Below, in pieces: positions 3,960-22,312 of a DNA stretch of 38,373 nt (its first letter is position 1; each line of letters starts with the position of its first letter). Under the pieces are notes generated by a model. It was given only the letters and a program-made list of their open reading frames with translations. It had not been told where the DNA came from and did no database searches. Source of the DNA: an uncultured Eubacteriales bacterium (GTDB lineage: Bacteria > Bacillota > Clostridia > Oscillospirales > Oscillospiraceae); contig ONPN01000046.1 of the NCBI GenBank assembly GCA_900319695.1, forward strand, positions 1-38,373. Direction: 5' to 3'. Position numbers and translations under genes: made by a program.

Positions 3960-5333
3960 ATGGAGAAACGACATGGAGACAAAGGCTTTTGGACGGCGCT
4001 CGGTCTGGGGCTGCTTGTGTTTTATCTGGGCTTTGCCCTGCTGGACGGCCATGGGCTCTATCCCGACTCTGAGAGCTATATCGGCATGGAGGTCGGGCGG
4101 GAGCCGGTCTACGCCCTGTACCTGGCCCTGTTCCGGCTCTGCTTTGGCAGATTTGGGGAGGGCGCGTGGCTGACCGCCGCGATGCTCGGTCAGAGCATGT
4201 TCGCCGCCTGGGCGGGCTGGTTCTTTGCGCGGCGCTGCGCGGCGCTGTTCGAGCTGCGCCGTTTTGAGAGCGCGGTGATCGCTCTGTGCACGCTGCTGCC
4301 CTCGCTGATGTGCCGCTTCTTTGCCAACCGTCACGCCATGTACAGCACCTCCATCCTGTCGGAGAGCCTGGCCTTTCCCCTGTTCACGGTCTTTTTTATC
4401 GTCCTGCTGTGCTGGGCGCTGGGAGGCAGACGGCGTGAGCTGCTGGGGGCGCTGCTCCTCGCCCTGCTGCTCTACTCGACGCGCAAGCAGATGGTCATTA
4501 CGCTGCCGCTGCTCGTCCTCGCAGGGCTCTGGCGCGGCGTGCGGACGCGGCGCTTCCGGAAAACGGCGCTTATGTCCGTGCTGCTGGCCGCGGCAGTGCT
4601 GATTACGAATGCCTTGCTTGACCGTGGCTATAACTATGCCCTGCGCGGCGAGGCCCTGCGCCACACGGGCGACATGCGCTTTATCTCCACGATGCTGCTC
4701 TACACCGCCGAGGAGGAGGACGCGGCGCTGTTTCCCGACGAGGACACGCGGGCGCTGTTTCTGGAGGTTCTTGACGCCGCAGACGAGAAACAGTACCGGC
4801 AGCGCTATGCACCAACGGACTGGTTCGGCCGCTCGCTCTACTTTATGAACGTCTATGACGGGATTCAATTCCTCTGCCTGCGCGACACCATTGAGGCGAG
4901 GGCGGAAGAGCGCTTCGGGGGCGATGAGCTCGCGATGGCGCTGGAGAAGGATCGGGTTTACACCGCGATCAACGCGGCGCTTCTGCCGGTGAGCGCGGGA
5001 CGGCTGGTCGGTGTGGTGTGCGACAGCTTCCTTGTGGGCCTGGTCTCGACCGTGCTGGCCCAGCGCCGCCTGTTCACGCTGCCGGCGCTCGGACTGTACG
5101 CAGTATTTATTTTGCTGCTCGTCCTGAATATCCGCAGAAAGCGCGAGGGGGAGGCGGCCTTCGGCGCGCTGACGCTGCTGTCCATCCTCGGGAACGTGGC
5201 GCTGGTGTCGCTCACGATCTTCTGTCAGGCGCGCTATACGCTGTACAACATGCCGATGTTCTATGCGGGGGCCTTCCTGTTGCTGCGCGGCACGCTGTCA
5301 AAAAAGACGGGCGTGGATAAAAACGGCAATTGA
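3960..5333 (+). CDS. Polytopic membrane protein, possible lipid-linked-sugar glycosyltransferase (GT-C-like)
   Basis: 457 aa from the ATG at 3960, which has GGGGAG 7 bases upstream; an in-frame TTG at 3945 lacks a ribosome site. About ten hydrophobic segments are seen. After the first is an extracytoplasmic loop with DGHGLYPDSESYIGMEVGRE. Acidic motifs in the first outer loop are typical of GT-C enzymes that use polyprenyl-phosphate sugars, and a loop at about residues 225-320 is soluble and rich in acidic residues. The pairing with a GT2 gene supports that reading, but no family signature is certain. The 3' end carries the -35 box of the next gene across its stop codon. Confidence 0.75.
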   Translation: MEKRHGDKGFWTALGLGLLVFYLGFALLDGHGLYPDSESYIGMEVGREPVYALYLALFRLCFGRFGEGAWLTAAMLGQSMFAAWAGWFFARRCAALFELRRFESAVIALCTLLPSLMCRFFANRHAMYSTSILSESLAFPLFTVFFIVLLCWALGGRRRELLGALLLALLLYSTRKQMVITLPLLVLAGLWRGVRTRRFRKTALMSVLLAAAVLITNALLDRGYNYALRGEALRHTGDMRFISTMLLYTAEEEDAALFPDEDTRALFLEVLDAADEKQYRQRYAPTDWFGRSLYFMNVYDGIQFLCLRDTIEARAEERFGGDELAMALEKDRVYTAINAALLPVSAGRLVGVVCDSFLVGLVSTVLAQRRLFTLPALGLYAVFILLLVLNIRRKREGEAAFGALTLLSILGNVALVSLTIFCQARYTLYNMPMFYAGAFLLLRGTLSKKTGVDKNGN

Positions 5334-5358
5334 CGGCTCGTCTGCAATCCTGTATAAT
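5330..5358 (+). promoter_or_regulatory. Promoter of the Tat-exported flavoprotein
   Basis: TTGACG (5330-5335) overlaps the stop codon of the preceding gene. A 17-base spacer and TATAAT (5353-5358) follow. The gene therefore has its own strong-looking promoter. Confidence 0.8.
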
Positions 5359-5411
5359 AGTTGAGTCAGGTGCGATAAACATCAATTTTTGAATGAAAGA
5401 AGGAGATTCCT

Positions 5412-7400
5412 ATGGGCAAGAACATTTCCCGCAGAGATTTTCTGAAGGGCGCTCTGGCCGGTTCCGCGGCTGTCGCGCTCAGCTCCGTCGCAGGCGTCAC
5501 CGCCTTTGCCGACGACGCGAAGGCCCTCTACACCCCCGGCACTTACACCGCTTCCGCCAAGGGCATCGCGAGCGACGTCAAGGTCACCATGGAGTTCAGC
5601 GAGACTGAGATCCTCAGTGTTGTGATCGATTCCTCCGGCGAGACCCCCGACATCGGCGGCAAGGCCGGCCCTCTTCTCGAGAAGGCCGTTCTTGAGGCCC
5701 AGAGCCCCGACATCGACGCCGTCTCCGGCGCGACCGTCACCACCGACGCGGTCAAGAAGGCCGTCGCGGACTGCATCTCCCAGGCCAGCGGCAAGGCCGT
5801 CGTTGTCCAGGAGGCCGCCCCCGTTGTCTCCGACTGGCTGGGCCAGGCTCCCGAGGTCGCCGAGAGCGACATCACCGAGACCGTGGACACCGAGGTTCTG
5901 GTCGTCGGCTGCGGCACGGGCGGCTGGATCGCCGCGATGACCGCCGCCGAGGAGGGCGCGAAGGTTCTGGTCGTTGAGAAGGCCGAGACCCCCACCAAGA
6001 TCAAGGAAGACATCGGCGCCATCGACTCCAAGCTCCAGCTTGCGAGCTTTGAGGAGTTCCCCGAGTTCAAGATCGACAAGACCGAAGCTATGCTCGAGAT
6101 CGTCCGCTACGCCAGCGGCTACGCCGACTCCGATCTGATCAAAGTCTGGGAGGACAACTCCGGCGAGCTGGTTGACTGGCTGACCGATATTCTTGAGGGC
6201 ACGGGCCACTGGTTCATGCAGTTTGAGGGCGGCGTCGGCAACCTGGAGCACCCCGATCACACCAAGGCCTACGCCACCGGCCACAGCCCCCATCCCACCG
6301 AGGACAAGCCCGCCGACGTCGATCTCAACTCCGACATGACAGAGTTTGTGACCAGCCGCGGCGGTGAGATCCGCTGCAAGACCAGCCTTGTCAAGCTCGA
6401 GCAGGACGCGGACGGCAAGGTCACCGGCATCATCGCCCAGGATATGGACGACAGCCACTACATCCGCATCAACGCCTCCAAGGGCGTCATCATGGCCACC
6501 GGCGGCTACGCCAGCAACGGCGACATGATGCTGGCTCTCCAGCCCCAGACCATGAAGATGAAGATCAACGTGCCGATGGGCTCCAAGTCCGACGGCGCAG
6601 GTATCAAGGCCATGCTGTGGGCCGGGGCCGAGATGGATCCCTGCCACGCCTCCATGATGTTCAACCGCTGCTCCTGCCTGCCCACCGAGACCGCAGGCTA
6701 CAAGACCAACGGCAAGTGGTACTGGTTCGGCGAGCAGCCCTTCCTTAAGGTCAACCTCAACGGCGACCGCTTCTGCAACGAGTCCGGCCCCTACGAGTTC
6801 ATGCTGCACTCTATGTACATGCAGCCCAAGCACACCTACGTCGACATCTTTGACGCCAACTGCAAGCAGTATGCCGAGCAGTTTGACGAGGTCGGCTGCT
6901 GCCGTCTCTTCCCCTTCCCCAACGGTGCGATTTCCAACCGGCCCTTCGACGTGTGCTGGAAGGATATGACCGAGGGCGAGAACTCCCACCTGGCGCTCGG
7001 CTATCTGCAGAAGGCCGACACCATTGCGGAGCTCGCCGAGAAGCTGAACATCCCCGCCGACGAGCTGGAGAAGACCGTCGCCCGCTACAATGTCCTCTGC
7101 GCCAAGGGCGTGGACGAGGACTACGGCAAGCCCGCCCACCGCATGACCCCGGTGGACACCGCTCCCTTCTACGGCATCCGCACCGGTGCCTGGCATCTGA
7201 CCACCCTTGACGGCTGCCGCATCAACACCGACATGCAGGTCATCCGGGAGGACGGCACCCCCATCGAGGGCCTGTACGCCACCGGCGACTGCACCGGCGG
7301 CTTCTTCGCCAACAACTACCCCAACCTCTTCACCGGTCTCGCCTGCGGCCGCACCATGACCTTCGGTCGCCGCGCCGCCAAGATCGTCGCGAAGAAGTAA
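5412..7400 (+). CDS. Tat-exported FMN/FAD flavoprotein reductase, flavocytochrome-c/fumarate-reductase superfamily
   Basis: 662 aa. Residues 1-33 are a twin-arginine signal (SRRDFLKG, then a hydrophobic stretch ending AFA). Residues about 38-125 are an FMN-binding domain with SGATVT at 105-110, where the last Thr is the expected site of covalent FMN. Residues about 160-655 are an FAD_binding_2 domain with the dinucleotide motif GCGTGG (166-171) and a C-terminal GLYATGDCTGG. Relatives use FMN and FAD to pass electrons to an organic acceptor such as fumarate, urocanate or other enoates. The usual HGxNRLGGN-type segment is replaced by FFANNYPNLFTGLACGR, so fumarate should not be assumed. AGGAG precedes the ATG. 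It has its own promoter and a terminator downstream; the substrate is unknown. Confidence 0.92.
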   Translation: MGKNISRRDFLKGALAGSAAVALSSVAGVTAFADDAKALYTPGTYTASAKGIASDVKVTMEFSETEILSVVIDSSGETPDIGGKAGPLLEKAVLEAQSPDIDAVSGATVTTDAVKKAVADCISQASGKAVVVQEAAPVVSDWLGQAPEVAESDITETVDTEVLVVGCGTGGWIAAMTAAEEGAKVLVVEKAETPTKIKEDIGAIDSKLQLASFEEFPEFKIDKTEAMLEIVRYASGYADSDLIKVWEDNSGELVDWLTDILEGTGHWFMQFEGGVGNLEHPDHTKAYATGHSPHPTEDKPADVDLNSDMTEFVTSRGGEIRCKTSLVKLEQDADGKVTGIIAQDMDDSHYIRINASKGVIMATGGYASNGDMMLALQPQTMKMKINVPMGSKSDGAGIKAMLWAGAEMDPCHASMMFNRCSCLPTETAGYKTNGKWYWFGEQPFLKVNLNGDRFCNESGPYEFMLHSMYMQPKHTYVDIFDANCKQYAEQFDEVGCCRLFPFPNGAISNRPFDVCWKDMTEGENSHLALGYLQKADTIAELAEKLNIPADELEKTVARYNVLCAKGVDEDYGKPAHRMTPVDTAPFYGIRTGAWHLTTLDGCRINTDMQVIREDGTPIEGLYATGDCTGGFFANNYPNLFTGLACGRTMTFGRRAAKIVAKK

Positions 7401-7417
7401 TCCTGGTTTTTCCCTTG

Positions 7418-7579
7418 AGTAAACGCTGATTAATACGCCTTCGGCGCCTGTCGGCAAATCTTCCCCAGCTCTGCGTTACAAAAACTTGAAATACACAAAG
7501 TATTCCTGCGTTTTTGTGCCTTGATCTGATAAAGATTTGTTCGACATTCGCTCTCGCCGTATTTAATCATCGTTTACTT
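7418..7579. repeat. Dispersed repeat, copy B
   Basis: About 162 bp bounded by an imperfect inverted repeat (AGTAAACGCTGATTAATACG at the left, CGTATTTAATCATCGTTTACT at the right). Read on the minus strand it has the order seen in copy C: CGGCGAGAGCGAAT, then ATACTTTGTGTATTTCAAG, then GGCGCCGAAGGCG. It sits between the flavoprotein stop and its terminator. No protein is coded. Confidence 0.75.
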
Positions 7580-7613
7580 GAATCCGGCGCCGAAAGGCGT
7601 CGGATTCTTTTTA
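7580..7613 (+). terminator. Intrinsic terminator after the flavoprotein gene
   Basis: A 12-bp stem (GAATCCGGCGCC with GGCGTCGGATTC, one G-U pair, GAAA loop) is followed directly by TTTTTATT. It ends the transcript before the nrfA promoter. Confidence 0.85.
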
Positions 7614-7661
7614 TTATACTATATTGCTAAAAAAGAGCTCTGTTTTTCGGCAACAATATGC

Positions 7662-7690
7662 TTGCAAAAATAAACAAAATACAATATTAT
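7662..7690 (+). promoter_or_regulatory. Promoter of the FMN-NrfA gene
   Basis: TTGCAA (7662-7667), a 17-base AT-rich spacer and TATTAT (7685-7690). A leader of about 55 bases follows. I see no clear Fnr or Rex palindrome. Confidence 0.65.
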
Positions 7691-7750
7691 ATAGATGTAT
7701 CCCTGCGCCCATTTGAGGTTTACAGGAATGTATGAGAACAGGAGAACATC

Positions 7751-9331
7751 ATGGATAAGAAGCAGAAACGTGAGAAGAGACTGAATCTGATCGGCATGAG
7801 CTGCGGTCTGTTTCTGGCCCTGCTGCTGGTGATCAACGTCGGCTCTGACGTCGTCGCCCGCGCGGCCAGCGCCAACGCCAAGACACTGACCGCCAGCGCC
7901 CCCGGCAAGGTCGGCGACGTGACTGTCGAGGTCAAGGCCGACGCCAAGAAGATTTACGAAGTCAAGGTGATCGAGCACAACGAGACCGAGGGCATCGGCA
8001 CCATGGCGGTCGACGCCATCCCCGGCCTGATCGTTGAGAAGCAGAGCCTGACGGTCGACGCCGTCTCCGGCGCCACCATCACCTCCGACGCCATCCGCGA
8101 CGCGGTTGCCCTCGCCCTGCAGAGCGGCGGCCTCAGCAGCGAAACCTACGGCTACGCGGCGCCGGAAATTGCCGCCAAGCCCATGGCCCACAAGGTGGAG
8201 ACCGGCACCGGCGTCAAGCTGCTGCACGCGGTCGACTGGAAGGATCAGTACCCCGACCAGTACAACACCTGGCTGATGACGAGCGAAAGCGACGACATCG
8301 ACGATTACCTCGAGGTCTATCCCATGCTGCGCGGCCTGTATGAGGGCTACGGCTTCGCCATCGATTATGGCTCCGCCCGCGGCCACTACTACGACGTGCA
8401 GGACATTGAGGCCACCGGCCGTCCGCACCCCCTGGCCAACTGCTGGACCTGCAAGACTCCCGATTTCACCCACATGGTGAACGAGGAGGGCATCGAGGCC
8501 TACAAGAAGGACTGGACCGAGGTGCAGTCCCAGATCACCGAGGGCATCAGCTGCTACACCTGCCACGCCAACACCCCCGGCGAAATCACCATCACGCACA
8601 CCTACTGGATCGACGCGGTGGGCGACGACTTTGACAGCATCGCGCCCGCGGATCTCGCCTGCGGCCAGTGCCACAACGAGTATTACTTCCACCCCGAGAC
8701 CAAGGCGACCACCATCGCCCACAACAGTCTCGCCTCCATGGACCCCGCGACGATGCTGGCCTTCTTCAACGACGGCTCCAATTTCCCGAGCGGCGAGCCC
8801 TTTGCCGACTGGACCAACCCCCGCACCGGCGTCAAGCAGATCAAGGTGCAGCACCCCGAGTTTGAGACCTATCTCGGCGCGGGCAGCCCCCATGCCGGCA
8901 CCTTCACCTGTGCCGACTGCCACATGCCCGATGCGGTCAATGCAAACGGTGAGGCTTACCACAGCCATAACCTGATAAGCCCGCTGGATAACCCCGAGCT
9001 CATTGCGAACACCTGCTCCGCCTGCCACTTCGATCTTGTGAAGGAAGTGCATGACCTCCAGGCCAAGGTTGAGACCCGCACCTATACGGTCGGCTACCGT
9101 CTTGAGTACCTGACTGAGCTGCTGGCCCAGGCCGTGGCGAGCGAGAAGTACACGGACGAACAGCTCGATCCCATCCGCTCCCTCGCCCGCGACGCGCAGT
9201 TCTATTGGGACTTCGTGTTCGTGGAGAACGCCGAGGGTGCGCATAACCCGACGCTGACCTACCAGTGCCTCGACAAGGCAGACGAGCTCTGCGCGGAGGC
9301 AACCTCTCAGATCCTCGCGCTGACCCGCTGA
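7751..9331 (+). CDS. nrfA: FMN-binding-domain / NrfA fusion: pentaheme ammonia-forming nitrite reductase
   Basis: 526 aa. Residues about 12-30 are an uncleaved membrane anchor or signal. Residues about 45-122 are an FMN-binding domain with SGATIT at 106-111, the motif for covalent FMN on Thr. Residues about 155-526 match NrfA: CWTCK (231-235), the special Lys-ligated catalytic heme, then CYTCH (268-272), CGQCH (304-308), CADCH (387-391) and CSACH (422-426). Active-site landmarks are Arg in RGH (210-212), Tyr in HNEYYF (311-312) and His in QHPEFE (367-372). The enzyme should reduce nitrite to ammonium with six electrons on the outer face. No nrfH lies nearby; the flavin domain may feed electrons instead (inference). 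AGGAG precedes the ATG. The resB and ccsA genes that follow would attach the hemes. Confidence 0.94.
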   Translation: MDKKQKREKRLNLIGMSCGLFLALLLVINVGSDVVARAASANAKTLTASAPGKVGDVTVEVKADAKKIYEVKVIEHNETEGIGTMAVDAIPGLIVEKQSLTVDAVSGATITSDAIRDAVALALQSGGLSSETYGYAAPEIAAKPMAHKVETGTGVKLLHAVDWKDQYPDQYNTWLMTSESDDIDDYLEVYPMLRGLYEGYGFAIDYGSARGHYYDVQDIEATGRPHPLANCWTCKTPDFTHMVNEEGIEAYKKDWTEVQSQITEGISCYTCHANTPGEITITHTYWIDAVGDDFDSIAPADLACGQCHNEYYFHPETKATTIAHNSLASMDPATMLAFFNDGSNFPSGEPFADWTNPRTGVKQIKVQHPEFETYLGAGSPHAGTFTCADCHMPDAVNANGEAYHSHNLISPLDNPELIANTCSACHFDLVKEVHDLQAKVETRTYTVGYRLEYLTELLAQAVASEKYTDEQLDPIRSLARDAQFYWDFVFVENAEGAHNPTLTYQCLDKADELCAEATSQILALTR

Positions 9332-9351
9332 TTCCATAACGAAACACACAA

Positions 9352-9377
9352 GCTGCCCGCCCGAAGGGGCGGGCAGC
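9352..9377 (+). terminator. GC hairpin after nrfA, possible terminator
   Basis: A perfect 11-bp stem (9352-9362 with 9367-9377) has a GAAG tetraloop. No T-run follows, so it may stabilise the 3' end or act as a pause rather than a full stop, allowing read-through into resB. Confidence 0.5.
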
Positions 9378-9387
9378 GAGGCAAATC

Positions 9388-9470
9388 CGTAGGGGCCGAT
9401 GCCCTCATCGGCCCGCCGTTCCGCTCCGTTGCGGCCAGTCGGCGGGTCGATCTGGGGATCGACCCCTACG
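9388..9470. repeat. Nested inverted repeat of GTAGGGG type
   Basis: Two 31-base arms (9388-9418 and 9440-9470) are imperfect inverted copies beginning CGTAGGGG. Each arm folds on itself (CCGATG/CATCGG in the left, GGGTCGATC/GATCGACCC in the right), so the whole can form a cruciform of two hairpins. It ends 5 bases before the ribosome site of resB. It is probably a MITE-like insertion. Confidence 0.7.
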
Positions 9471-9489
9471 TTTTTAGGGGGGCTTGTCC

Positions 9490-10728
9490 ATGAAAAAAGT
9501 ATTCAACTACCTGCGCTCCATGCGCTTCGGTCTGCTGCTGCTCGGGCTGATCGCGGCCTGCTCCGTGGCGGGCACCGTGATCCCCCAGGGGCGGGAGATC
9601 GCCTGGTACGCGCAGACCTATCGCTCCTTCCATGGGGTGATTCTGCTGCTCAGACTCAACCGCGTGTTCGAGAGCTGGTACTTCATCGCCCTGCTCGTGC
9701 TGCTCTGTCTCAATCTCAGCCTCTGTTCCCTGCTGCGCATCCGCAGCGTGGTGAAGGCCGCAAAGGGCGAAACAGAGCGCGCAGCGAAGCTGCCTGTCAC
9801 CGTCCGGCTCACATCCGAGGGCGTTGAGAAACTGCGGGAGTATCTGGACGCCATGCACTGCAAAAGCGAAGTTGTGAACGGCGCGACGGTCTACCGCAAG
9901 CACGGAATCGGGCGCTACGGAACCTTTATCACGCATCTGTCCATATTGCTGACGGTCGTGTTCGGCGCGCTCGCCCTCTATACCCCGACGGTAGTCGACC
10001 GGGACTGCATGCCAGGAGAGTCGATCTTTCTCGAGGACGGGACGGAGATCCATGTGGCGGACTTTCGCATCGCGGACGAGACCGGGCGGCTCGACTATCA
10101 GAGCCATGTACAGGTCACGCTGCCGGACGGGCGGCGCAGCGAAGTGGCCGAGCTCAAGGTGAACCACCCCTTCTCCTTCGGGCCGTACAAGCTGTTTCAG
10201 CAGACCTTCGGCACGACGGGGGCCGTCACGGTCACGGACCTCGACGGCAGCGAGTTTGTGACCTATGTCAGCCGCGGGGACGCGCTGATGATCGACGAGG
10301 GCAACAGGCTGGTCATCGACACGCTCTACCCCGACTATGCCGTATCGCCGGACGGGGAGCTCACCTTCGATACGATCACCACCGGGGCTTATCCGAATCC
10401 GATCTATACAGGGCTCATCATCGCCGACGGGGAGCGGACGCCGTTCTACGCCCTGCCGGGGCAGACGCTTGAGCTGACGGGGGCTCGCTTCACCTTTAAC
10501 GCGCCGGTGGACTACCCCGGCATCCGCGTCAAGCATGTCTCAACCCTTGTGAACGCCCTGCTGGTGGCCGCCTTCACGCTGATGATCGTCGGGCTGTATA
10601 TCACGTTTTTCTACGAGCCCGTCCTTGTCAAGGTCGACGAGTCGGGTTATACTGTAGCCGGGCCCAAGCCCGAGCGCATGCGTGTGGAGCTGGGCGAGGA
10701 GCTGCGGGCGTATGAGTGTGGAGAGTGA
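9490..10728 (+). CDS. resB: System II cytochrome c biogenesis protein ResB (Ccs1)
   Basis: 412 aa from the ATG at 9490, which has AGGGGGG upstream; a TTG at 9484 is too close to that site. ResB layout: membrane helices at about residues 12-32 and 53-75, a third near 140-160, a large outer domain (about 165-350) and a last helix at about 355-380. The opening (LRSMRFGLLLLGLIAACSVAGTVIPQ) is typical of the family. ResB works with CcsA to move heme across the membrane and join it to CxxCH/CxxCK cysteines. Directly before ccsA and after a pentaheme cytochrome gene, so dedicated maturation of NrfA is likely. Confidence 0.93.
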   Translation: MKKVFNYLRSMRFGLLLLGLIAACSVAGTVIPQGREIAWYAQTYRSFHGVILLLRLNRVFESWYFIALLVLLCLNLSLCSLLRIRSVVKAAKGETERAAKLPVTVRLTSEGVEKLREYLDAMHCKSEVVNGATVYRKHGIGRYGTFITHLSILLTVVFGALALYTPTVVDRDCMPGESIFLEDGTEIHVADFRIADETGRLDYQSHVQVTLPDGRRSEVAELKVNHPFSFGPYKLFQQTFGTTGAVTVTDLDGSEFVTYVSRGDALMIDEGNRLVIDTLYPDYAVSPDGELTFDTITTGAYPNPIYTGLIIADGERTPFYALPGQTLELTGARFTFNAPVDYPGIRVKHVSTLVNALLVAAFTLMIVGLYITFFYEPVLVKVDESGYTVAGPKPERMRVELGEELRAYECGE

Positions 10729-10793
10729 AGAGCGGAGTTAAGGCGTCGCCTTCGGCGACGATGGAAATGCAAGGGACAGAGAGAGGGATTTAA

Positions 10794-11582
10794 TTGAAAA
10801 CAATGTTTTTTATCGCGCTGGTGAGCTATGCGCTGGCGGTGGCTCTGGAGTTTTCCGGGACTGCGTTTAAGAAGGACAAGCTGCTGAAGGCCGCGTGGTA
10901 TGTGTTTTTAGCAGCCTTTGCCGTGCACAGCTTGTTTATCGTCTGGCGCGGGATCGCGGCCAGACGGCTGCCGCTGTCAAACCAGTTTGAGTTTGCCAAT
11001 GCCTTTGCCTGGGGCGTGGCACTCATACTGATCGTGATGCGCGGCAGGCTGAAAACCGACTGGCTCTCGGTTGCGGCGATGCCGGCTGCGCTGCTGGTGA
11101 TGGTCTATGCCTCGCTCCAGCCCATGGAGATCAAGGACCTGATGCCCGCCCTGCGCAGCGCCTGGTTCGGCGTACACATCGGCTCTGCGGTTTTGAGCTA
11201 CTCAGCTTTTGTCATCGCCGGCAGTATCAGCCTGCGCTATCTGATCGCCGTGAAGAAGGGCAGCGCGGACAAAAAGGCCCTGGATCAGATGGACTATTTC
11301 AGCTACCGCATGGTGGCCTTCGGCTTTCTGTTTCTGACGGTGGTCATCCTCTCCGGCGCGATCTGGGCCGAGCAGGCCTGGTCCGCGTTCTGGACCTGGG
11401 ACCCCAAGGAGGTCTGGGCCCTGATCACCTGGATCATCTACGCGGTGTATCTGCATCTGCGGCTGCGCATGAAAAAGCGAGGCACGGCCATGGCGTGGTT
11501 TCTTGTGATCGCGGTGCCGGTGGTGTTCTTCACCTTTGCCGGCGTCAACACCCTGATGCATGGGCTTCATACATATGGATGA
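10794..11582 (+). CDS. ccsA: System II cytochrome c biogenesis protein CcsA (ResC)
   Basis: 262 aa with about eight membrane helices. The Trp-rich heme-handling motif is clear in the second half (AWSAFWTWDPKEVWALITW), and conserved His residues appear in GVHIGSAVLSY and near the C-terminus (MHGLHTYG). CcsA presents heme on the outer face; with ResB it forms the cytochrome c synthase. The start is TTG at 10794, with GAGAGGG about 6 bases upstream; an ATG at 10803 is too far from that site. A 65-base gap containing a small GTCGCC/GGCGAC hairpin separates it from resB. The stop overlaps a strong terminator. Confidence 0.93.
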   Translation: MKTMFFIALVSYALAVALEFSGTAFKKDKLLKAAWYVFLAAFAVHSLFIVWRGIAARRLPLSNQFEFANAFAWGVALILIVMRGRLKTDWLSVAAMPAALLVMVYASLQPMEIKDLMPALRSAWFGVHIGSAVLSYSAFVIAGSISLRYLIAVKKGSADKKALDQMDYFSYRMVAFGFLFLTVVILSGAIWAEQAWSAFWTWDPKEVWALITWIIYAVYLHLRLRMKKRGTAMAWFLVIAVPVVFFTFAGVNTLMHGLHTYG

Positions 11583-11623
11583 TCAAAAAATGGCCGCCCA
11601 TTGAGGGCGGCCATTTTTTGATC
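11581..11623. terminator. Bidirectional terminator between ccsA and acpP
   Basis: A perfect 19-bp inverted repeat (11581-11599 with 11605-11623, loop ATTGA) contains GGCCGCCC/GGGCGGCC and flanking A6/T6 runs, so it works in both directions. It ends ccsA on the plus strand and acpP on the minus strand. Confidence 0.92.
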
Positions 11624-11632
11624 AAGATTGAA

Positions 11633-11860
11633 TTACTGCAGCTTATCCAGATACTCAACGATCCGCCGCACCGTGTAAAGCTGGGCGGCGTCCTCGTCGG
11701 TGATGGAGATGCCGTACATATCCTCGAGGGACATGATCAGCTCAACCACATCGAGGGAGTCGGCGCCGAGATCATCAATGAGGTTGGTGTCCGGGGTGAT
11801 GCTTTCGGGGTCAACCTCAAACTGCTGCGCGAGAGCGTCTCTGACCTGTTCAAAATTCAT
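11633..11860 (-). CDS. acpP: Acyl carrier protein
   Basis: 75 aa, acidic, the standard ACP length. The phosphopantetheine site is in LGADSLDVVELIM (Ser of DSL, about residue 35). ACP carries growing acyl chains in fatty-acid and phospholipid synthesis in the cytoplasm. GGAGG lies 8 bases before the ATG, and a promoter is found at 11894-11922. It stands alone here, without plsX or fab genes, which is unusual for a main acpP and leaves open that it is a second copy. Confidence 0.95.
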   Translation of the reverse strand: MNFEQVRDALAQQFEVDPESITPDTNLIDDLGADSLDVVELIMSLEDMYGISITDEDAAQLYTVRRIVEYLDKLQ

Positions 11861-12355: not shown

Positions 12356-13210
12356 TTATGCCCACTCGCGGCTCTTGGGCTTGTTGTCGGGCTTCTCGGG
12401 CTTGATGTAGGAGACCACGACGCGGCGGTTTGGCTCGACGCCGGTGGAGTTGGTGGTCACGCCCTCGTAGTTCTGGAGCGCGGTGTGGATGACGTGGCGC
12501 TCATAGGAGTTCATTGGCTCCAGTGCCATGCTGCGCTTGTACTTGATGGCCTTCTCCGCCATCTTCTCGGCTAGCCTGGTGAGGGACTCCTCCCGCTTGG
12601 AGCGGTAGGCCTCGGCGTCGACGGAGATGTGGAGGTGCTTGTCGCTGTCCTTGTTGACGACATAGTTGGTCAGGTGCTGGATGGCATCCAGAGTCTCGCC
12701 GCGGCGGCCGATGATCGCGCCCATGGCGGGGCCGGTGAGGTTGACGTTGACGCCGCCGTTGTCGCGGGGACTGATCTCCATGTCGGCGCTCACGCCCATG
12801 CGCTCAAGCAGACCGGTCAGGAAGGCGCGGATCGCGGCGTAGTCGGCGTTCTCGTCGGCGACAGCGGCAGCGGGCTTCTCGGCGACAGGAGCAGGCGCGG
12901 GCTTTTCGGCCTTGGGCTGCTTCTTCTCCTGCTTTACGGGAGCGGGCTTCTCAGCCTTTACGGGAACCTTTTCGACCTTCACGGGGGTGGGTCTCTCCGC
13001 CTTCTGGGGCGCGGGCTTGACAGGCACGGGATCGGGGACCTCATAGCTCACGGACACGCGCGCGGGAACCGCGCCGATGCCGAGAAAGCCAGTCTTGCCC
13101 ATCTCGAGAATCTCCACCGACACGTCGTCACGGCTGAGACCCAGCTCCTTGAGGGCCTCCTCAATCGCCGCGTCGACCGTGCGGGCGGATTTTTCCAGTT
13201 TTTTTATCAT
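12356..13210 (-). CDS. jag: Jag / KhpB RNA-binding protein
   Basis: 284 aa. The domains run in the normal order: Jag-N (about 3-52, with ILEMGKTGFLGIGAVPARV), a Pro/Lys/Ala-rich linker (about 60-120) of repeated KPAPVK-like units, a KH domain (about 130-205, GAIIGRRGETLDAIQHLTNY with the GxxG loop) and an R3H domain (about 210-275, with the R-x3-H of RHVIH). It binds RNA and is linked to cell elongation in Firmicutes; in Bacillus it is the SpoIIIJ-associated protein. It follows yidC by 19 bases, as is usual. The mnmE-mnmG genes often found next are absent. Confidence 0.95.
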   Translation of the reverse strand: MIKKLEKSARTVDAAIEEALKELGLSRDDVSVEILEMGKTGFLGIGAVPARVSVSYEVPDPVPVKPAPQKAERPTPVKVEKVPVKAEKPAPVKQEKKQPKAEKPAPAPVAEKPAAAVADENADYAAIRAFLTGLLERMGVSADMEISPRDNGGVNVNLTGPAMGAIIGRRGETLDAIQHLTNYVVNKDSDKHLHISVDAEAYRSKREESLTRLAEKMAEKAIKYKRSMALEPMNSYERHVIHTALQNYEGVTTNSTGVEPNRRVVVSYIKPEKPDNKPKSREWA

Positions 13211-13229
13211 ATCTGTCAGACTCTCCTGT

Positions 13230-14603
13230 TTACTCTTGTTCGGTGCTCTCGCCGACGGTCTCTGCGGTTTCGGCGGCGGTCTCGTCGACGGCCTCCTCCA
13301 TCGCGGCGGTCTGCTCGACGGCGGCGCTCGTCACGTCCTCAAGCTCCTCGTCGATGGACGGGGCATCCTCGGACGCGGCGGCAGCGGCCAAGGTCGCGGC
13401 CTCGGCGTTCTCGGGATTGCTGAAGCGGTCGGGGACGTAGGCGCGGCCTCTCGCGTAGCGGCGGTTGCCCACCTGAGAAGCGGGCTTCTCGGCCTCCTTG
13501 ATGCCGAGGCGCTCGCGCCTGGCGGCGCGGTCGGCGCGGTCAAGGGCGGCCTTGCGCTCGTCCTGCTTCTGCTTTTCGCTGGCCTGGAGCTTTTTCTTGC
13601 TGGTGTTGGTGTTGAGGGGGGTCTTTCCCTCGGCCTTCAGGCGCTCATACTCGGCGCGCTTGGCCTCCATCTCGGCTTCCTTCTCGGCGCGCTGGGCCGC
13701 GCGGACTTTGTCCTCCTCTTCCAGCTGCGCCGTGTACTTCTTGGTGAGGAAGTAGTCGCGCGCCATGCCGAAGACGGAGTTGGCGATCCAGTAGATGCCC
13801 ATGGCGGCGGGCATGATGAAGCAGATCCAGACGCTCATCAGGGGCATCATCATGTTCATGCTCTTCATGGTGGCCTGGGACTGGGCGTCGCCGGTGGAGG
13901 GGCTGGAGGCGGAGCTGACCTTCATGGACAGGTAGGACAGGCCGGCCGAAATGAACGGGATGAGGAAGAGCCCGAGGGCCGGGCCCCAGACAGAGGGATC
14001 GGACCAGTCAGTGTGGGTGAAGAAGTTCCACTCCGGCTGATCGCCGAGGTTCAGGCCGAGGAAGCTGAAATCGAGGTCGATGAGGCCGTCGATCTTCCCG
14101 GCGAGGTTGGAGGTCACGTCGCCCCAGTGCTGGTGAGCGAGGTTTGCGAGCTTGATCTCGGCATAGGCCTCGGCGCGGGCGCCCGCGTCGACATACCAGC
14201 CCTGCGCGATCATAAACTCCTTGAGTGCGTCCACCACGGAGTCCGCGGCGAACATCATGCGGGTAATGGGTCTGCGGATGACGCTGTACAGCGCGATCAG
14301 GATCGGGAAGGGAATCAGGGACCAGAGGCAGCCGGACATGGGGTTGATGCCCTCTTCCTGATAGAGCTTCTGCATCTCGGCGTTGAGCTTCTGCTGATTG
14401 CCCTCGTGCCGCCGCTGCAGCTCCTGGATCTTGGGCTGGAGGCGGGAGGTGCGCATCATGCTCTTCTTGCTCTTGGCCATGAAGGGCGTCATGATGAGGT
14501 TGACCAGCAGCGCGAACGCGATGATGGCCAGGCCGTAGTTGCCCGTCGCCTCATAGATCTTGACGAGCGGCCAGGCAAAGATCCTGCAAATTAATTCGCC
14601 CAT
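13230..14603 (-). CDS. yidC: Membrane protein insertase YidC/Oxa1
   Basis: 457 aa. The 60KD_IMP core occupies about residues 20-275: GNYGLAIIAFALLVNLIMTPFMAKSKKSMMRT starts it, followed by a helical hairpin, four more membrane helices and the late SVFGMARDYFLTKKY. It inserts membrane proteins alone or with SecYEG. The C-terminal 170 residues are a long charged, low-complexity tail (Lys/Arg/Ala/Glu, then acidic), longer than in Bacillus homologues and likely to contact ribosomes. An insertion of about 60 residues sits between the first and second core helices. The ATG follows AGGAG. Confidence 0.95.
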   Translation of the reverse strand: MGELICRIFAWPLVKIYEATGNYGLAIIAFALLVNLIMTPFMAKSKKSMMRTSRLQPKIQELQRRHEGNQQKLNAEMQKLYQEEGINPMSGCLWSLIPFPILIALYSVIRRPITRMMFAADSVVDALKEFMIAQGWYVDAGARAEAYAEIKLANLAHQHWGDVTSNLAGKIDGLIDLDFSFLGLNLGDQPEWNFFTHTDWSDPSVWGPALGLFLIPFISAGLSYLSMKVSSASSPSTGDAQSQATMKSMNMMMPLMSVWICFIMPAAMGIYWIANSVFGMARDYFLTKKYTAQLEEEDKVRAAQRAEKEAEMEAKRAEYERLKAEGKTPLNTNTSKKKLQASEKQKQDERKAALDRADRAARRERLGIKEAEKPASQVGNRRYARGRAYVPDRFSNPENAEAATLAAAAASEDAPSIDEELEDVTSAAVEQTAAMEEAVDETAAETAETVGESTEQE

Positions 14604-14631
14604 AGGGTTACTCCTTTATATAAGGATAGGC

Positions 14632-14850
14632 TTAGGGTACGGGGTCGTAAAAGCCGCGCCGCCCGTGATAGAAGGGGTGGCAGCAGCAGATTCTCCGGAA
14701 GGCCATCCAGCCCCCTTTCAGGGCGCCGTATTTTTCGATGGCCTCCACGGCGTACTGGGAACAGGTCGGGGTAAATCGGCAGCAGGGCTGGCGCAGAGGC
14801 GAGATGGCGCGCTGGTAAAAGCGGATCAGGGCAAGCAGAATGGCTTTCAT
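14632..14850 (-). CDS. yidD: Membrane protein insertion efficiency factor YidD
   Basis: 72 aa. The family signature is complete: [11 protein letters not shown], then [38 protein letters not shown]. It is an amphipathic membrane-associated helper of YidC. It overlaps rnpA by 4 bases (ATGA), as in most Firmicutes. Confidence 0.96.
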
Positions 14851-15194
14851 TCGGCATCCCCCCGCAGAAGGCCCAGCTTTTCACAGGCGGTGAGATAGGC
14901 CCGCTCGAGCTTTTTGTACTCCGTTCCCACCGCGCGGCTGCGCGCGACGAGCACGAGGTCAAAGCCGGGCTTCAGGGCCGCGCCGTTGAGGCGCACGATC
15001 TCCCGCAGACGGCGGCGCACGCGGTTTCTCACCACGGCGTGGCCGAGCTTGGTGGACACGGTGTAACCCGCGCGATTGTGGTCAAGCCGGTTTTTCCGGC
15101 AGTACAATACCAGATACGGCGTTGCCGCGCTCTTGCCTTTGGCATAGAGACGGCGGAAATCGCTGTTCTTTTTTAAGGTATACCTAACCTTCAC
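14847..15194 (-). CDS. rnpA: Ribonuclease P protein component
   Basis: 115 aa from a GTG at 15194, which has GGAGG 6 bases upstream; the GTG at 15209 overlaps that site and is rejected. Signature residues are [17 protein letters not shown] at the start and the RNR box [15 protein letters not shown] in the middle. With the RNA subunit it trims the 5' ends of pre-tRNAs. It is co-transcribed with rpmH upstream, but a 161-bp repeat lies between the two genes. Confidence 0.95.
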
Positions 15195-15218
15195 CGTTTT
15201 CCTCCGCACAAGCGCCTA

Positions 15219-18201: not shown

Positions 18202-19605
18202 TCACTCCTCAACGTACAACGGATCGTTCCAGGTAAAGTTATAGGTCGTGTAGGCGTAATCCTCAAACTGCTCGCGCAGCTTTTCGTAGCGCGGGTGGAG
18301 CTTGTCCACATAGGTGTCGATGTAGTTTGCAAGCTCGATATAGCGCCAGCGGCCGCCCACCGGATCGTCATAGACCGTAAGGTCGATCTCGCAGTTGGGC
18401 GCGCGCCGGTGGAACTCCTCCACCTGCTCGGCCGGGACGGGGTTATACGCGCCGATCCAGAGGCGCTCCAGCCCCGTCAGGGGGTAGAGCGGCGTAATAT
18501 CCGTCAGGGAGGGGCGCTCGCCGTCCCCGTAGAAGTCGTAGCCGATGCTGGCGATGTTCAGATGGCGCAGCTTGTCAAGTCCCGACAGCGGGCGCAGATC
18601 CGAGGCGTAGCTGTTGGAGAGCTCCAGATATTCAAGCTCATGGCAGCTCGCCAGCGGCGTGAGGTCGCGGATATTGCACATGGAGAGGATCGCGACCTCG
18701 AGCTTCGGCATGCGTGAGCAGAAGCCGATATCCGTCAGCATGGTGTTGTGGCCAAGGTCGAGATACTTGACGTCATGGCAGTAGTAGAGGCCGTCCACGT
18801 TGTCGTTGGTCAGCATGCCGCCGCGCGAGGCCATGGAGGCCAGAATGCGCTCGGTATCCGTGCGGGCGGTGTAATTGTCGCCGAAGAAGACGCGGAAGAC
18901 CACCTTGACACTCGGGTGGCGGAGATTGATGTCCTCGAGCCGCTTCACGTCCAGGCCGCAGCTGTCCATGTCGACATAGGTGAGCTGGGGCATGTAGTTC
19001 ATGACCTCGTCGATAAAATTGCCGTTGTCCTTGACGGGGACGCGGTAGAGGTTGATGGTGGTGTTGGAGAGGTCGCAGTCGACGCCGTAGAGCTTGAAGG
19101 CGTATTGGAAGGCGGGCCTCGGCAGGATCTGGCGCAGTCTTGAAATATCGCTCCAGGTGAGCACGCCGCCCTCGGCGCCGAGCTTGACGCTCTCAATGCC
19201 GGGCAGCAGGGCGAGCTTGCGGGCCGCTGCCTCGCAGTCGGCAACGGACATGGCGCTCAGATCAGCGGAGCGCGCGTCGGTATCCAGCACGGTCCCGTTC
19301 GGGAGCGTGACGGTGTAGCGGGCGCTCACCTGCGGGTGGGCCATGGCCCAGTTGGCGGCCTCCTCCTCGTTCTCGCTGCCGCTGAGATCGACGGCGCGCA
19401 GGGCGGGCAGAGAATCAAGCAGGGCGGCCTCCCCGGCGGCGAGGCGGATCTGCAGCGACTCCGTCGCGACGTCCACATCGCCGGCGGCAAAATGCACGGG
19501 CGGGATCGGCGTCGGCTCCGGCGGGGTCTGTTCCCTCTTGCCGCAGGCGTTGAGAGCAAGGCAGAGGATAAGAACAAGTGCGATAAACAATTTGCGAAAA
19601 TTCAT
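18202..19605 (-). CDS. Leucine-rich-repeat lipoprotein 4 of tandem array
   Basis: 467 aa from the ATG at 19605, with AAGGAG upstream; a longer frame to 19641 overlaps the previous gene. A lipoprotein signal ends LCLALNAC (lipobox, Cys near residue 21). The N-terminal half has the array's module (ANWAMAHPQVSARYTVTLPN then GTVLDTDARSADLSAM). The C-terminal half has about five 22-residue repeats (KYLDLGHNTMLTDIGFCSRM, LEVAILSMCNIRDLTPLASC, LEYLELSNSYASDLRPLSGL). It closes with FTWNDPLYVEE. LRR surface proteins usually bind protein partners; the ligand is unknown. The stop overlaps the possible nadE start. Confidence 0.85.
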   Translation of the reverse strand: MNFRKLFIALVLILCLALNACGKREQTPPEPTPIPPVHFAAGDVDVATESLQIRLAAGEAALLDSLPALRAVDLSGSENEEEAANWAMAHPQVSARYTVTLPNGTVLDTDARSADLSAMSVADCEAAARKLALLPGIESVKLGAEGGVLTWSDISRLRQILPRPAFQYAFKLYGVDCDLSNTTINLYRVPVKDNGNFIDEVMNYMPQLTYVDMDSCGLDVKRLEDINLRHPSVKVVFRVFFGDNYTARTDTERILASMASRGGMLTNDNVDGLYYCHDVKYLDLGHNTMLTDIGFCSRMPKLEVAILSMCNIRDLTPLASCHELEYLELSNSYASDLRPLSGLDKLRHLNIASIGYDFYGDGERPSLTDITPLYPLTGLERLWIGAYNPVPAEQVEEFHRRAPNCEIDLTVYDDPVGGRWRYIELANYIDTYVDKLHPRYEKLREQFEDYAYTTYNFTWNDPLYVEE

Positions 19606-19618
19606 GGTTCGCTCCTTT

Positions 19619-21001
19619 TTATTCAGAGGGGGCAGCCGCATTTGGGCCGTCGTACAGCGGGTCGTTCCAGGTCAGGGAGAAGACGTCGTCGTCATAGTAG
19701 TCAAACTGCATGCGCAGCAGGTAGTAGCGGGGTACGATGTTGCCGTCCCCGTCCCAGCGCCAGTGTCCGCCGGTGGGATCGTCATAGACAAGGGTGTCGA
19801 TCTCACAGTTTGGGAGGTGGCGGCGCAGCTCCTCTGCCTGCTCGTTCGGGACGCGGTTCATGCTCCCCAGATACAGGCGCTCAAGCTGGGTCATGCCGAA
19901 GAGCGGAGAGACGTCCTCAATATCCACGATGCCGGCGATGTTCAGGTGCTTGAGCTTATGCAGCTTTGCAAGCGGGCGAAGGTCCGTGCACTCGGTGCCG
20001 AACATCTCGAGGTATTCAAGCTCCGGGCAGTTGGTGAGGGGCGTGGCGTCCGACCAGCCGCACATGGCGAGGATGGCGGTCTCCAGCTTCGGCATCTGCG
20101 CGACGAAGGAGATATCCGTCAGCTGCTGGTTGTGGCCCAGGTCGAGGAACACGACGTCGTGGCAGCAGGCCAGAGCCTCCGCGTCCCAGGGGTAGATCAT
20201 GCCGCCCGCCGACGGTCTGGACGCGAGGATGCGCTGCACGTCGGTGCGCACGCTGTAGTTCTCGCCGAACCACACGCGCCAGACGAATTTCACGTCCGGG
20301 AAGTCCGTGCGCAGCTTTTCCATCTCCGGATTGGGAATGCCCGTGGTGTCCATGTCCACATAGTTGAGCTCGGTCATCAGAGGGATGACCTTCCGCAGCG
20401 CTTCGGCGTTGTCATCGATGGGGATGTGGCTGAAGTTGAGGGAGGTGTCCGAGAGATCGCAGTCCTTGCCGTAGAGCGTAAAGCCGTAGCGGAACGCGGT
20501 CTCCGGCAGCAGGGCGCGCAGGCGCGCGAGACTCTCCCAGGTATGCGCGCCGCCCTCTTTCCCGAGGCGGACGTTTTTCAGATCCGGCAGCAGGGCGAGC
20601 TTTGCGGCGCAGGCCTCGCACTCGGCGGGAGACAGGCTGCGCATGTCATAGCTCTGTGTGCCGGAGTCGATCACCGTCCCGTCCGGCAGGGTCACCGTGT
20701 AGAAGCATTCGATCTCCGGGTGGGCCTTGGCCCAGGCGGCGACCTCCTCCTCGTTCGCGCTGCCGCTCAAATCAGCCGAGCGCAGGGCGGGCAGGGACGC
20801 GAGCAGCGCGGTCTCCCCCTCGGCGAGAGGAAGGCGCAGCTCCTCGCTGTCCGCGGCAGCGCTTCCGGCGGCGAAGACCACCGGCGGCAGACCTGGCTCC
20901 TCAGTCGCGGCCGGCGCGCCGCTCTTCCCGACGCCGCAGGCGGTCAGGAGAGAGCAGAGCGCGAGGAGGGAAAGGCTGTAAAGCAATTTTTTCTTAGACA
21001 T
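19619..21001 (-). CDS. Leucine-rich-repeat lipoprotein 3 of tandem array
   Basis: 460 aa. The lipoprotein signal is MSKKKLLYSL with lipobox LLTAC (Cys 22). The order matches its neighbours: a short Ala/Pro/Glu spacer, the WAKAHPEIECFYTVTLPDGT module, KNVRLGKEGG and YVDMDTTG segments, the VWRVWFGENYSVRTDVQRIL block, then LRRs (VFLDLGHNQQLTDISFVAQM, LETAILAMCGWSDATPLTNC, LEYLEMFGTECTDLRPLAKL). The C-terminus has FSLTWNDPLYDG before an Ala-rich tail. AAGGAG lies 7 bases before the ATG and 9 bases separate it from the gene upstream. Function unknown, surface exposure predicted. Confidence 0.86.
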   Translation of the reverse strand: MSKKKLLYSLSLLALCSLLTACGVGKSGAPAATEEPGLPPVVFAAGSAAADSEELRLPLAEGETALLASLPALRSADLSGSANEEEVAAWAKAHPEIECFYTVTLPDGTVIDSGTQSYDMRSLSPAECEACAAKLALLPDLKNVRLGKEGGAHTWESLARLRALLPETAFRYGFTLYGKDCDLSDTSLNFSHIPIDDNAEALRKVIPLMTELNYVDMDTTGIPNPEMEKLRTDFPDVKFVWRVWFGENYSVRTDVQRILASRPSAGGMIYPWDAEALACCHDVVFLDLGHNQQLTDISFVAQMPKLETAILAMCGWSDATPLTNCPELEYLEMFGTECTDLRPLAKLHKLKHLNIAGIVDIEDVSPLFGMTQLERLYLGSMNRVPNEQAEELRRHLPNCEIDTLVYDDPTGGHWRWDGDGNIVPRYYLLRMQFDYYDDDVFSLTWNDPLYDGPNAAAPSE

Positions 21002-21010
21002 GAAAGCTCC

Positions 21011-22312
21011 TTAGAACGGGGACGTATCCTGGAAATCGAGAACGTCCGGATCGGGTACGACCTCGCGGGGACAGCTTACGTCGTAGAGCGGATCGTTCCA
21101 GGTGAAGGCGAAAGCCCCCTCCTCATAGCCGCCGAACTGCTCACGCAGCAGCTCATAGCGCGGATCGTAGCGGGGGTTGCCCATCTCGTCGCCGTGCTCG
21201 CTGAAGCGCCAGTACTCCTCGGTGGGGTCCGGCGTGGTGTCGTTGACGATACAGTTGGGGTGCAGGGATCGGAAGTGCTCGACCTGCTCCGTTGAGACAG
21301 GGTCGTGCATGCCGATCCAGAGTCGTTCGAGATCAAGGCCGTAGAGCGGTGAGATGTCCGTCACGGCGAAGTTATAGCAGATGTTGAGGTGCTTGAGATT
21401 GTGGCAGTTGGCCAGGGGCGTCAGATCGTGGAGCCTCGTGGTCATGGCCTCCAGGTACTCGAGCTTCGGGCAGTTGGCCAGCGGGGAGAAGTCCTCCACG
21501 AAGGTCATGCCGACGATCAGCACCTCGAGATCGGGCATGTAGCGGCAGAACTCAATGGTGTCCAGATAGTTGTTGTGGCCGAGGTCCAGGTACTTGACCT
21601 TGGTGCAGTATTTGAGATTCTGCACGTTGTTGTGCGCAAGCTCCCCCGCTTTGCCGGGCATGGAGGCCAGGATGCGCGTCACGTCCGTGCGGGCGGTGTA
21701 GTACTGGGCGAAGTTCACGCGCCAGACAACTTCTGTATTCGGCAGACTGTCGCGCAGGCGCGCCATGGCCTCATTGGAAACACGGCAGCTGTCCATGTCC
21801 AGCAGGCGCAGTCTGCTCATACAGGCGGTGACCTTGGCGACCAGCGCCCCCTCGTCTTCCATGTGGATATACTTGAGATCCATCACCTCGTCGCTGAGGT
21901 TGAAGCTGCGGTCGAACATGGTAAAGGCGTAGTCGATCACGGCCTGTGGGGCCGCGTCGTGCAGGAGCTTCAGGCTCTCCCAGCTCAGGGGCGTCGCCTG
22001 CTCGCTGCCGATGCGGATGGTCTGCAGCGCGGGCATTTTGCCGAGCGTGTCCGCGATTGCCGCCGCGTCCGCGTCCCGCAGTCCCGCGAGGTCGACAGAG
22101 GTGTCGGAGGCGCGATAGGTTTTGCCGAGGATTTGGAATTCCGGCTCCGGCGTCGGGGTCGGCTCCGGGGTAGGCGCGGGCGTCTCCGTCGGCGCAGGCG
22201 TTTCCGTCACGGCCGGGGTCTCAGGCTCTCCCCCGCCCCCGCAGCCTGCGAGCAGCAGGCACAGCGTCAGGCAGAGCAGCAGAACGGGAAAGCGCTGTTT
22301 GTTCAGTATCAT
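21011..22312 (-). CDS. Leucine-rich-repeat lipoprotein 2 of tandem array
   Basis: 433 aa. The lipoprotein signal has lipobox LLLAGC (Cys 24), followed by a Thr/Pro/Glu spacer (ETPAPTETPAPTPEPTPTPE) suited to crossing the cell wall. It lacks the first WAKAHPE module of its neighbours, which makes it the shortest. The YLDLGHNNYLDTIEFCRYMP, LEVLIVGMTFVEDFSPLANC and LEYLEAMTTRLHDLTPLANC repeats and the closing FAFTWNDPLYDV are shared. The ATG overlaps the upstream stop by 4 bases, so translation is coupled. Confidence 0.87.
   Translation of the reverse strand: MILNKQRFPVLLLCLTLCLLLAGCGGGGEPETPAVTETPAPTETPAPTPEPTPTPEPEFQILGKTYRASDTSVDLAGLRDADAAAIADTLGKMPALQTIRIGSEQATPLSWESLKLLHDAAPQAVIDYAFTMFDRSFNLSDEVMDLKYIHMEDEGALVAKVTACMSRLRLLDMDSCRVSNEAMARLRDSLPNTEVVWRVNFAQYYTARTDVTRILASMPGKAGELAHNNVQNLKYCTKVKYLDLGHNNYLDTIEFCRYMPDLEVLIVGMTFVEDFSPLANCPKLEYLEAMTTRLHDLTPLANCHNLKHLNICYNFAVTDISPLYGLDLERLWIGMHDPVSTEQVEHFRSLHPNCIVNDTTPDPTEEYWRFSEHGDEMGNPRYDPRYELLREQFGGYEEGAFAFTWNDPLYDVSCPREVVPDPDVLDFQDTSPF

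Follow-up and report, generated by a model that had tools for sequence, protein, structure and literature searches.

The stretch of DNA analysed here (the window; 38,373 nucleotides) carries a gene in which a nitrite reductase of the NrfA type is joined in frame to an FMN-binding domain, raising the question of where such an enzyme takes its electrons. A 2025 review of NrfA names NrfH, CymA and NrfB as redox partners, and its main text contains none of the terms flavin, FMN, Rnf or Clostrid- (PMC12285233). The sequence-only reading of the locus had proposed that a covalently bound flavin may be the point of electron entry, making the enzyme self-contained. We compared the gene with its relatives, its neighbours and the partner genes of the genomes that carry it.

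A flavin domain and a pentaheme reductase in one frame

The fusion gene (P0001; 7751–9331, plus strand, as are all features of the locus given below unless noted) is an uninterrupted frame of 526 amino acids with an ATG start. Its product begins with a basic N-terminus and a predicted membrane-spanning stretch (residues 1–44; 7751–7882), where hydropathy is strongest within residues 11–36 (peak of 2.3 from residue 13), remaining at or below 1.01 for every 19-residue segment starting beyond residue 45; this N-terminus would act as a membrane anchor or signal peptide. The FMN_bind domain that follows (residues 52–124; 7904–8122) scored 57.6 bits against a Pfam cut-off of 22 for PF04205 and was matched again in the profile search of the genome. 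It contains the predicted flavinylation motif SGATIT (residues 106–111; 8066–8083), in which Thr109 is presumably the exact residue modified with FMN. A linker of varying length and sequence (about residues 125–161; 8123–8233) leads into the NrfA pentaheme nitrite reductase domain (residues 162–521; 8234–9313), identified by Pfam (PF02335, Cytochrom_C552; 244.6 bits against a gathering cut-off of 24.1), by PDB sequence matches and by Foldseek. Five heme motifs were read within it: CWTCK at residue 231 (8441–8455), assigned to the active-site heme, CYTCH at residue 268 (8552–8566), CGQCH at residue 304 (8660–8674), CADCH at residue 387 (8909–8923) and CSACH at residue 422 (9014–9028). Pfam and motifs thus confirm what had been read from the sequence, a single frame running from a membrane stretch through FMN_bind into a full NrfA with CxxCK and four CxxCH motifs. 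A basic start followed by a hydrophobic stretch would suit an extracytosolic protein, a location that c-type heme sites would imply. With PF04205 above its cut-off and a motif of the form [S/T]GA[S/T], the protein also carries both marks of a flavinylated FMN_bind domain, the motif rule being that set out in the parts of PMC8238504 available to us.

The reductase part is divergent in sequence and conserved at its catalytic positions. It scored well below the curated NCBIfam cut-offs (209.1 of 595 bits for the equivalog model NF008339 and 169.7 of 692.5 bits for TIGR03152), which on sequence score makes it a divergent branch outside both models. Residues R210, Y311/Y312, H368, K365 and Q367 align with E. 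coli NrfA (chain 1gu6); we take the first four to be the active-site Arg, Tyr and His, and K365 and Q367 to lie near the calcium site. These residue roles are in part those described in the available text of PMC12285233. In an alignment of 40 rows (A3), the Cys and His/Lys residues of all five heme motifs were invariant and R210 was retained in 10/10 fused rows; the same column holds Ile or Val in 6/30 unfused relatives, the activity of which may differ. Foldseek with the model of the window protein placed NrfA structures at the top, with an FMN domain (8p2b) at rank 43 (E = 0.017). The AlphaFold model, built without cofactors, had a mean pLDDT of 80.6, falling under 50 at residues 79–110, the flavin loop.

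Upstream lies a separate gene for an FMN_bind-bearing, fumarate-reductase-like flavoprotein (5412–7400; TAT_signal, PF04205 and FAD_binding_2), which appears to follow the same flavin logic as the fusion, with tatC (Pfam) further upstream. Between it and nrfA, pattern matching found a terminator-like hairpin (7580–7607) and a promoter-like site with 9/12 consensus matches (7662–7690), suggesting that nrfA begins its own transcript; across positions 5300–11,700, six terminator-like sites were found against 4.2 expected in shuffles, and four promoter-like sites against 1.4. Co-transcription of nrfA with the fumarate-reductase-like gene appears unlikely given the terminator-like hairpin between them, itself a pattern match. 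Downstream, a structured intergenic stretch with two hairpins (9352–9469; fold z-score of −6.4 for 9332–9483) separates nrfA from resB. This double hairpin is very stable and contains a GTAGGGGC...GACCCCTAC palindrome; an inverted-repeat search of the gap returned no match, though folding gives strong hairpins. The next two genes encode the System II cytochrome c synthesis proteins ResB-like (9484–10,728; PF05140) and CcsB (10,794–11,582; TIGR03144 above cut-off), which, judged by family, would attach the hemes. With these as its neighbours on one side and the fumarate-reductase-like gene on the other, the window gene does not lie directly behind rnfB.

Elsewhere in the window, jag (khpB), yidC and rnpA lie on the minus strand at 12,356–15,209, a set usual near the replication origin, and a YidC-like frame was seen by eye near the fused nrfA of one relative (L082) as well. 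Four successive leucine-rich-repeat proteins, apparently a tandem family, occupy the minus strand at 18,202–23,949. The host genome (2.82 Mb, 79.3% complete) yielded one NrfA and one ApbE in the profile search, together with 17 FMN_bind matches, of which eight fall within a multi-flavin region on contig C63. Another contig (C91) carries, as read by eye, rnfC, rnfD, rnfG, rnfE and the beginning of rnfA, with a profile match for RnfD.

Recurrence of the fusion and rnf-linked relatives

The GTDB scan, whose query was a three-row alignment with one row (P0002) itself rnf-linked, returned at least 79 loci, the best matches being listed. FMN_bind lay within the NrfA frame in 14 of the best 79, ten of which (L074–L082 and L085; 57–88% identical) share the window's arrangement by HMM. 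Among these, L081 deviates: its NrfA frame has two partial FMN_bind matches, and a further FMN_bind frame overlaps it upstream. Fused scan records were labelled Oscillospiraceae, Ruminococcaceae, Eubacteriales, Clostridiales or Clostridia, with ruminant gut as the stated source of several, and the labels of many of the best 79 records name the gut of cattle, sheep, goat, deer or buffalo.

Of 400 genomes sampled from the family, 31 had a match; in 14 of these, the window's own included, the match spans from residue 10 or earlier to residue 516 or later. Ten of the 13 other full-span genomes were retrieved, and HMM searches found the FMN domain in 10/10; one of the 13 is the record of L085. From the 30 other NrfA-bearing genomes of the family sample, 20 regions were retrieved (ten fused, five rnf-linked, five neither), the remaining ten including one that was analysed separately (G379). 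Within the window's genus, five of the ten genomes listed have NrfA, all fused by match span. The samples of higher rank (order, 394 genomes; class, 391; phylum, 398) gave 2, 5 and 67 genomes with a match, the window's own included each time, and among the matches listed no NrfA outside the window's genome reaches into the FMN part. These three samples and that of the family overlap, and the scan and family sets are not independent (L217, L227, L230 and L232 are probably the same records as L085, L087, L151 and L097). Recurrence in ten other GTDB records and 13 other family-sample genomes (one shared) shows that the fusion is not an assembly accident; it is a genuine, patchy trait of one family. 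Misassembly, a lone chimera and chance were considered and ruled out, the same in-frame order being present in ten other GTDB records and ten family regions.

A different association was found in the relatives at large. Upstream of nrfA, rnf genes occur in 44 of the best 79 GTDB loci in the order rnfC-rnfDG-E-A-B-nrfA, a proportion that is not a natural frequency, since P0002 in the query is rnf-linked and only the best matches were listed. The rnfD and rnfG parts form a single frame in 42/44, the other two loci beginning at contig ends after rnfDG; FMN_bind is matched in 42/42 of these frames, with [S/T]GA[S/T] in 41 (SSAS in L091). Between rnfB and nrfA lie a median of 14 bp, and no more than 70 bp in 38/43 (1.4 kb in L090, 2.9 kb in L113), so that the flavin of RnfG is encoded together with NrfA. 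Both resB and ccsB follow nrfA in 69 of the best 79 loci. The full set rnfC-rnfDG-rnfE-rnfA-rnfB-nrfA-resB-ccsB recurs in gut clostridia (L066 and 44 loci within L090–L151), and rnf-nrfA sets were also seen in records labelled Christensenella, Solobacterium and Spirochaetales. The rnf-nrfA set looks like an Rnf complex equipped with a dedicated nitrite reductase. Four of the 44 rnf-linked loci are themselves FMN-fused. L098 and L148 carry several FMN domains and L136 carries two; in L122, a 973-aa FMN_bind-FAD_binding_2-NrfA protein with a fumarate-reductase-like FAD part is encoded behind the rnf genes (L122:7342–10,263). In the remaining 25 of the best 79 loci, neither a fusion nor a visible rnf link is present; 18 of these show more than 2.5 kb upstream and 7/25 show less. 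They include L083 and L084, the nearest unfused relatives of the window's group, showing that this NrfA scaffold also occurs with no FMN domain attached.

The NrfA tree, built by a quick method with SH-aLRT support only, excluded L086 (319 aa) for its length, L022 and L023 as FMN frames rather than NrfA, and L094 as a tandem NrfA. The window, 77/79 scan loci and G379 fall together in an NrfH-free clade of mostly gut-clostridial NrfA (79 rows; SH-aLRT 100), which takes in every Rnf-linked row and 0/15 NrfH-linked rows. Within it, the fused type of the window (11 rows) is one group (SH-aLRT 99) with L083 and L084 nearest, while L098, L122, L136 and L148 are separated from that group by a branch with support of 96. 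FMN_bind and NrfA were therefore joined at least twice, unless losses are invoked; by domain order we count three putative separate joins.

Partner genes and the source of electrons

Searches for NrfH and ApbE covered 52 genomes, mostly drafts (those of 50/79 scan loci, the window's own and G379). A protein of the NrfH/NapC family (PF03264) was found in 0/52, the window's genome included; the same search was positive in the E. coli control. Genes of this kind are detectable, since four-heme NrfH-like genes adjoin 15/35 NrfA loci drawn from the samples of higher rank (order, class and phylum). The sequence-only reading, which saw no NrfH encoded with the window's NrfA, holds for NrfH across the 79.3% complete genome, and a hidden NrfH in the clade is rejected within the limits of these 52 mostly draft genomes. 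The flavin transferase ApbE, on which that reading also depended, is present in the window's genome and in 10/11 fused-clade genomes (one as a fragment); across the 52, 44 had a match, 43 of these above cut-off, and ApbE was not found in eight.

On this evidence we favour, with a probability of about 0.72, an extracytosolic NrfA fed by a covalent flavin on the same chain, the flavin domain probably replacing the usual cytochrome partner, NrfH, as electron inlet. ApbE would attach FMN to Thr109, an outer-face membrane donor, most likely Rnf via RnfG, would reduce it, and the flexible linker would bring the flavin domain to an exposed heme of NrfA. In known NrfA, heme 2 is the entry side. From there electrons would pass along the five-heme chain to the Lys-ligated heme and reduce nitrite to ammonium, as the conserved catalytic residues suggest. 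We read covalent flavins as the electron source of the clade as a whole, in most cases an RnfG-type flavin encoded in an rnf operon and acting in trans, with the flavin domain of the window's group standing in for NrfH in cis. The idea of a covalent flavin as entry point is supported by the lack of NrfH matches, the presence of ApbE, the retention of SGAT and, most strongly, the rnf-linked relatives, with the electron flow itself a matter of inference; against it count the 25/79 unlinked loci, the unfused L083 and L084, the eight of 52 genomes without a detected ApbE, the poorly modelled flavin loop, the incompleteness of the window's genome and the draft state of most others, and the substitution rates considered next. 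To call the enzyme self-contained goes too far: its FMN still depends on a membrane component for reduction, most probably Rnf (RnfD in 10/11 fused-clade genomes).

Alternatively, the flavin domain could serve chiefly to anchor the protein in the membrane, or be a remnant of the gene fusion, with NrfA fed by another donor and FMN, if present, off the route. In favour of this reading, L083 and L084, directly beside the fused clade, lack the FMN domain, and the linker, 33–41 residues long across ten fused proteins, is poorly conserved (32–70% identity in five pairs). In four of these pairs (the exception being L082) identity is lower in the FMN part than in the NrfA part, and dN/dS of the FMN part reaches 0.8–1.0 between the window and L078 and L079, two more distant relatives, so that the argument from selection is weakened. 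Residues 17–140 are, moreover, 50% identical to part of the multi-flavin frame on contig C63 of the same genome, so the membrane-FMN module probably derives from a multi-flavin protein of that kind and may have arrived ready made. Set against this, Asp103 and the SGAT residues (S106, G107, A108, T109) are identical in 10/10 fused proteins, and against the closer L074, L082 and L075 the FMN part shows a dN/dS of about 0.2–0.3, as expected of purifying selection in these pairs. With ApbE in 10/11 genomes and further FMN-NrfA joins elsewhere in the clade, we consider a mere anchor or leftover decidedly improbable and retain the flavin inlet.

Which donor reduces the FMN is a separate matter. RnfD, searched in the genomes of 33 scan loci, the window's own and G379, was present in 10/11 fused-clade genomes, compared with 6/11, the window's among them, for a NapH-like protein (PF12801; searched in the genomes of 12 scan loci and the window's own), and for this reason Rnf is preferred and is probably the best candidate. 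A quinol-linked or other membrane flavin donor (NapH-like, multi-flavin or Ndh2-type) in place of Rnf is rather doubtful; it would accord with the NapH-like matches, with the multi-flavin region on C63 and with the position of the fused genes outside rnf operons, though 3/10 fused scan loci show less than 2.5 kb upstream and L220 has a convergent rnf set whose end lies about 1.2 kb from ccsB. NapH-like proteins are missing in 5/11 genomes and RnfD in 1/11, the contig with the NapH-like frame in the window's genome (C79) has no FMN_bind match, and that frame runs, by eye, into a thioredoxin-like part. This membrane iron-sulfur and thioredoxin-like combination (C79, L186) may serve cysteine reduction for heme attachment. 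Besides the donor, the purpose of the enzyme could differ: a mainly protective role (removal of nitrite, NO or hydroxylamine) or another substrate, with the flavin fed by any reductant, would fit the lack of a nitrate reductase among the window frames given to Pfam, the several FMN_bind proteins of the genome, which suggest a shared flavin pool, and the reduction of hydroxylamine by NrfA-type enzymes described in the accessible part of PMC12780646. Such a role is compatible with the flavin route itself, but the rnf linkage in many relatives points to energy metabolism, and we regard it as unlikely. A flavin-fed NrfA with Rnf as its probable donor therefore remains our preferred account.

Relation to known systems

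With the NrfHA complexes of Desulfovibrio and Wolinella and the NrfAB system of E. coli, the window protein shares CxxCK and four CxxCH motifs, the active-site Arg, Tyr and His, the Lys and Gln positions and the fold, and System II maturation genes adjoin it. Unlike these, it comes from a genome without an NrfH-family match, has a membrane stretch and FMN_bind on the same chain, and falls below the NCBIfam cut-offs. Closer in design are the Listeria FrdA-type fumarate-reductase-like enzymes, in which, in the text available of PMC8238504, an extracytosolic reductase likewise has an ApbE-type FMN domain fused to it through which electrons enter; there the catalytic part is an FAD reductase, whereas here it is a five-heme cytochrome. 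The same source reports, for Christensenellales, a multi-flavinylated RnfG with a multi-heme cytochrome domain, encoded in rnf clusters. Flavin domains and a multi-heme cytochrome thus occur in one protein, as in L098 and L148, with which it is possibly identical; the window protein differs in being short, with a single FMN and outside any rnf operon. Also reported there are NapH-like flavinylated clusters with NirS in 133 genomes, again a flavin-associated extracytosolic nitrite reductase, but NirS is a different enzyme and is cluster-linked to the NapH-like protein. A cytochrome route from methanogen Rnf is mentioned in the same text, and in Methanosarcina acetivorans the multiheme cytochrome MmcA is proposed to work with Rnf; in the parts available of PMC11024163, MmcA is a heptaheme conduit and not a nitrite reductase, unlike the pentaheme NrfA of the window. 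The word nrfA does not occur in the text of PMC8238504, and we found no description of an FMN_bind-NrfA fusion or an rnf-nrfA operon in partial listings of the open-licence literature, judged by titles and the beginnings of abstracts.

If true, a flavin-fed NrfA, in cis or via Rnf, would add a further partner to NrfH, CymA and NrfB and, in fermenting gut bacteria, would couple the ammonification of nitrite directly to ferredoxin and to ion pumping. Going further, we tentatively suggest, at slightly less than even odds, that this mostly gut-clostridial NrfA constitutes a further redox-partner class in which the outer flavin of Rnf feeds NrfA, giving a ferredoxin-driven, ion-pumping nitrite respiration without a quinol dehydrogenase, and that the window's clade made this link portable through a covalent flavin of its own. 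Nitrate in the ruminant gut has been discussed as a hydrogen sink competing with methane formation (by the title of a reference in PMC10811737), and surveys that count nrfA and ignore its partner would misjudge the energy metabolism of such organisms.

Several relatives show other rearrangements of the same parts. RnfB and NrfA form one 705-aa frame in L142 (7990–10,107), placing iron-sulfur domains of a cytosolic type and outer heme domains on one chain, and L094 (8800–11,235) encodes tandem NrfA domains with ten heme motifs in a single frame. At the unfused nrfA-resB-ccsB locus of L228, a separate 161-aa RnfG-like FMN_bind protein follows ccsB, as though the flavin part had a gene to itself there.
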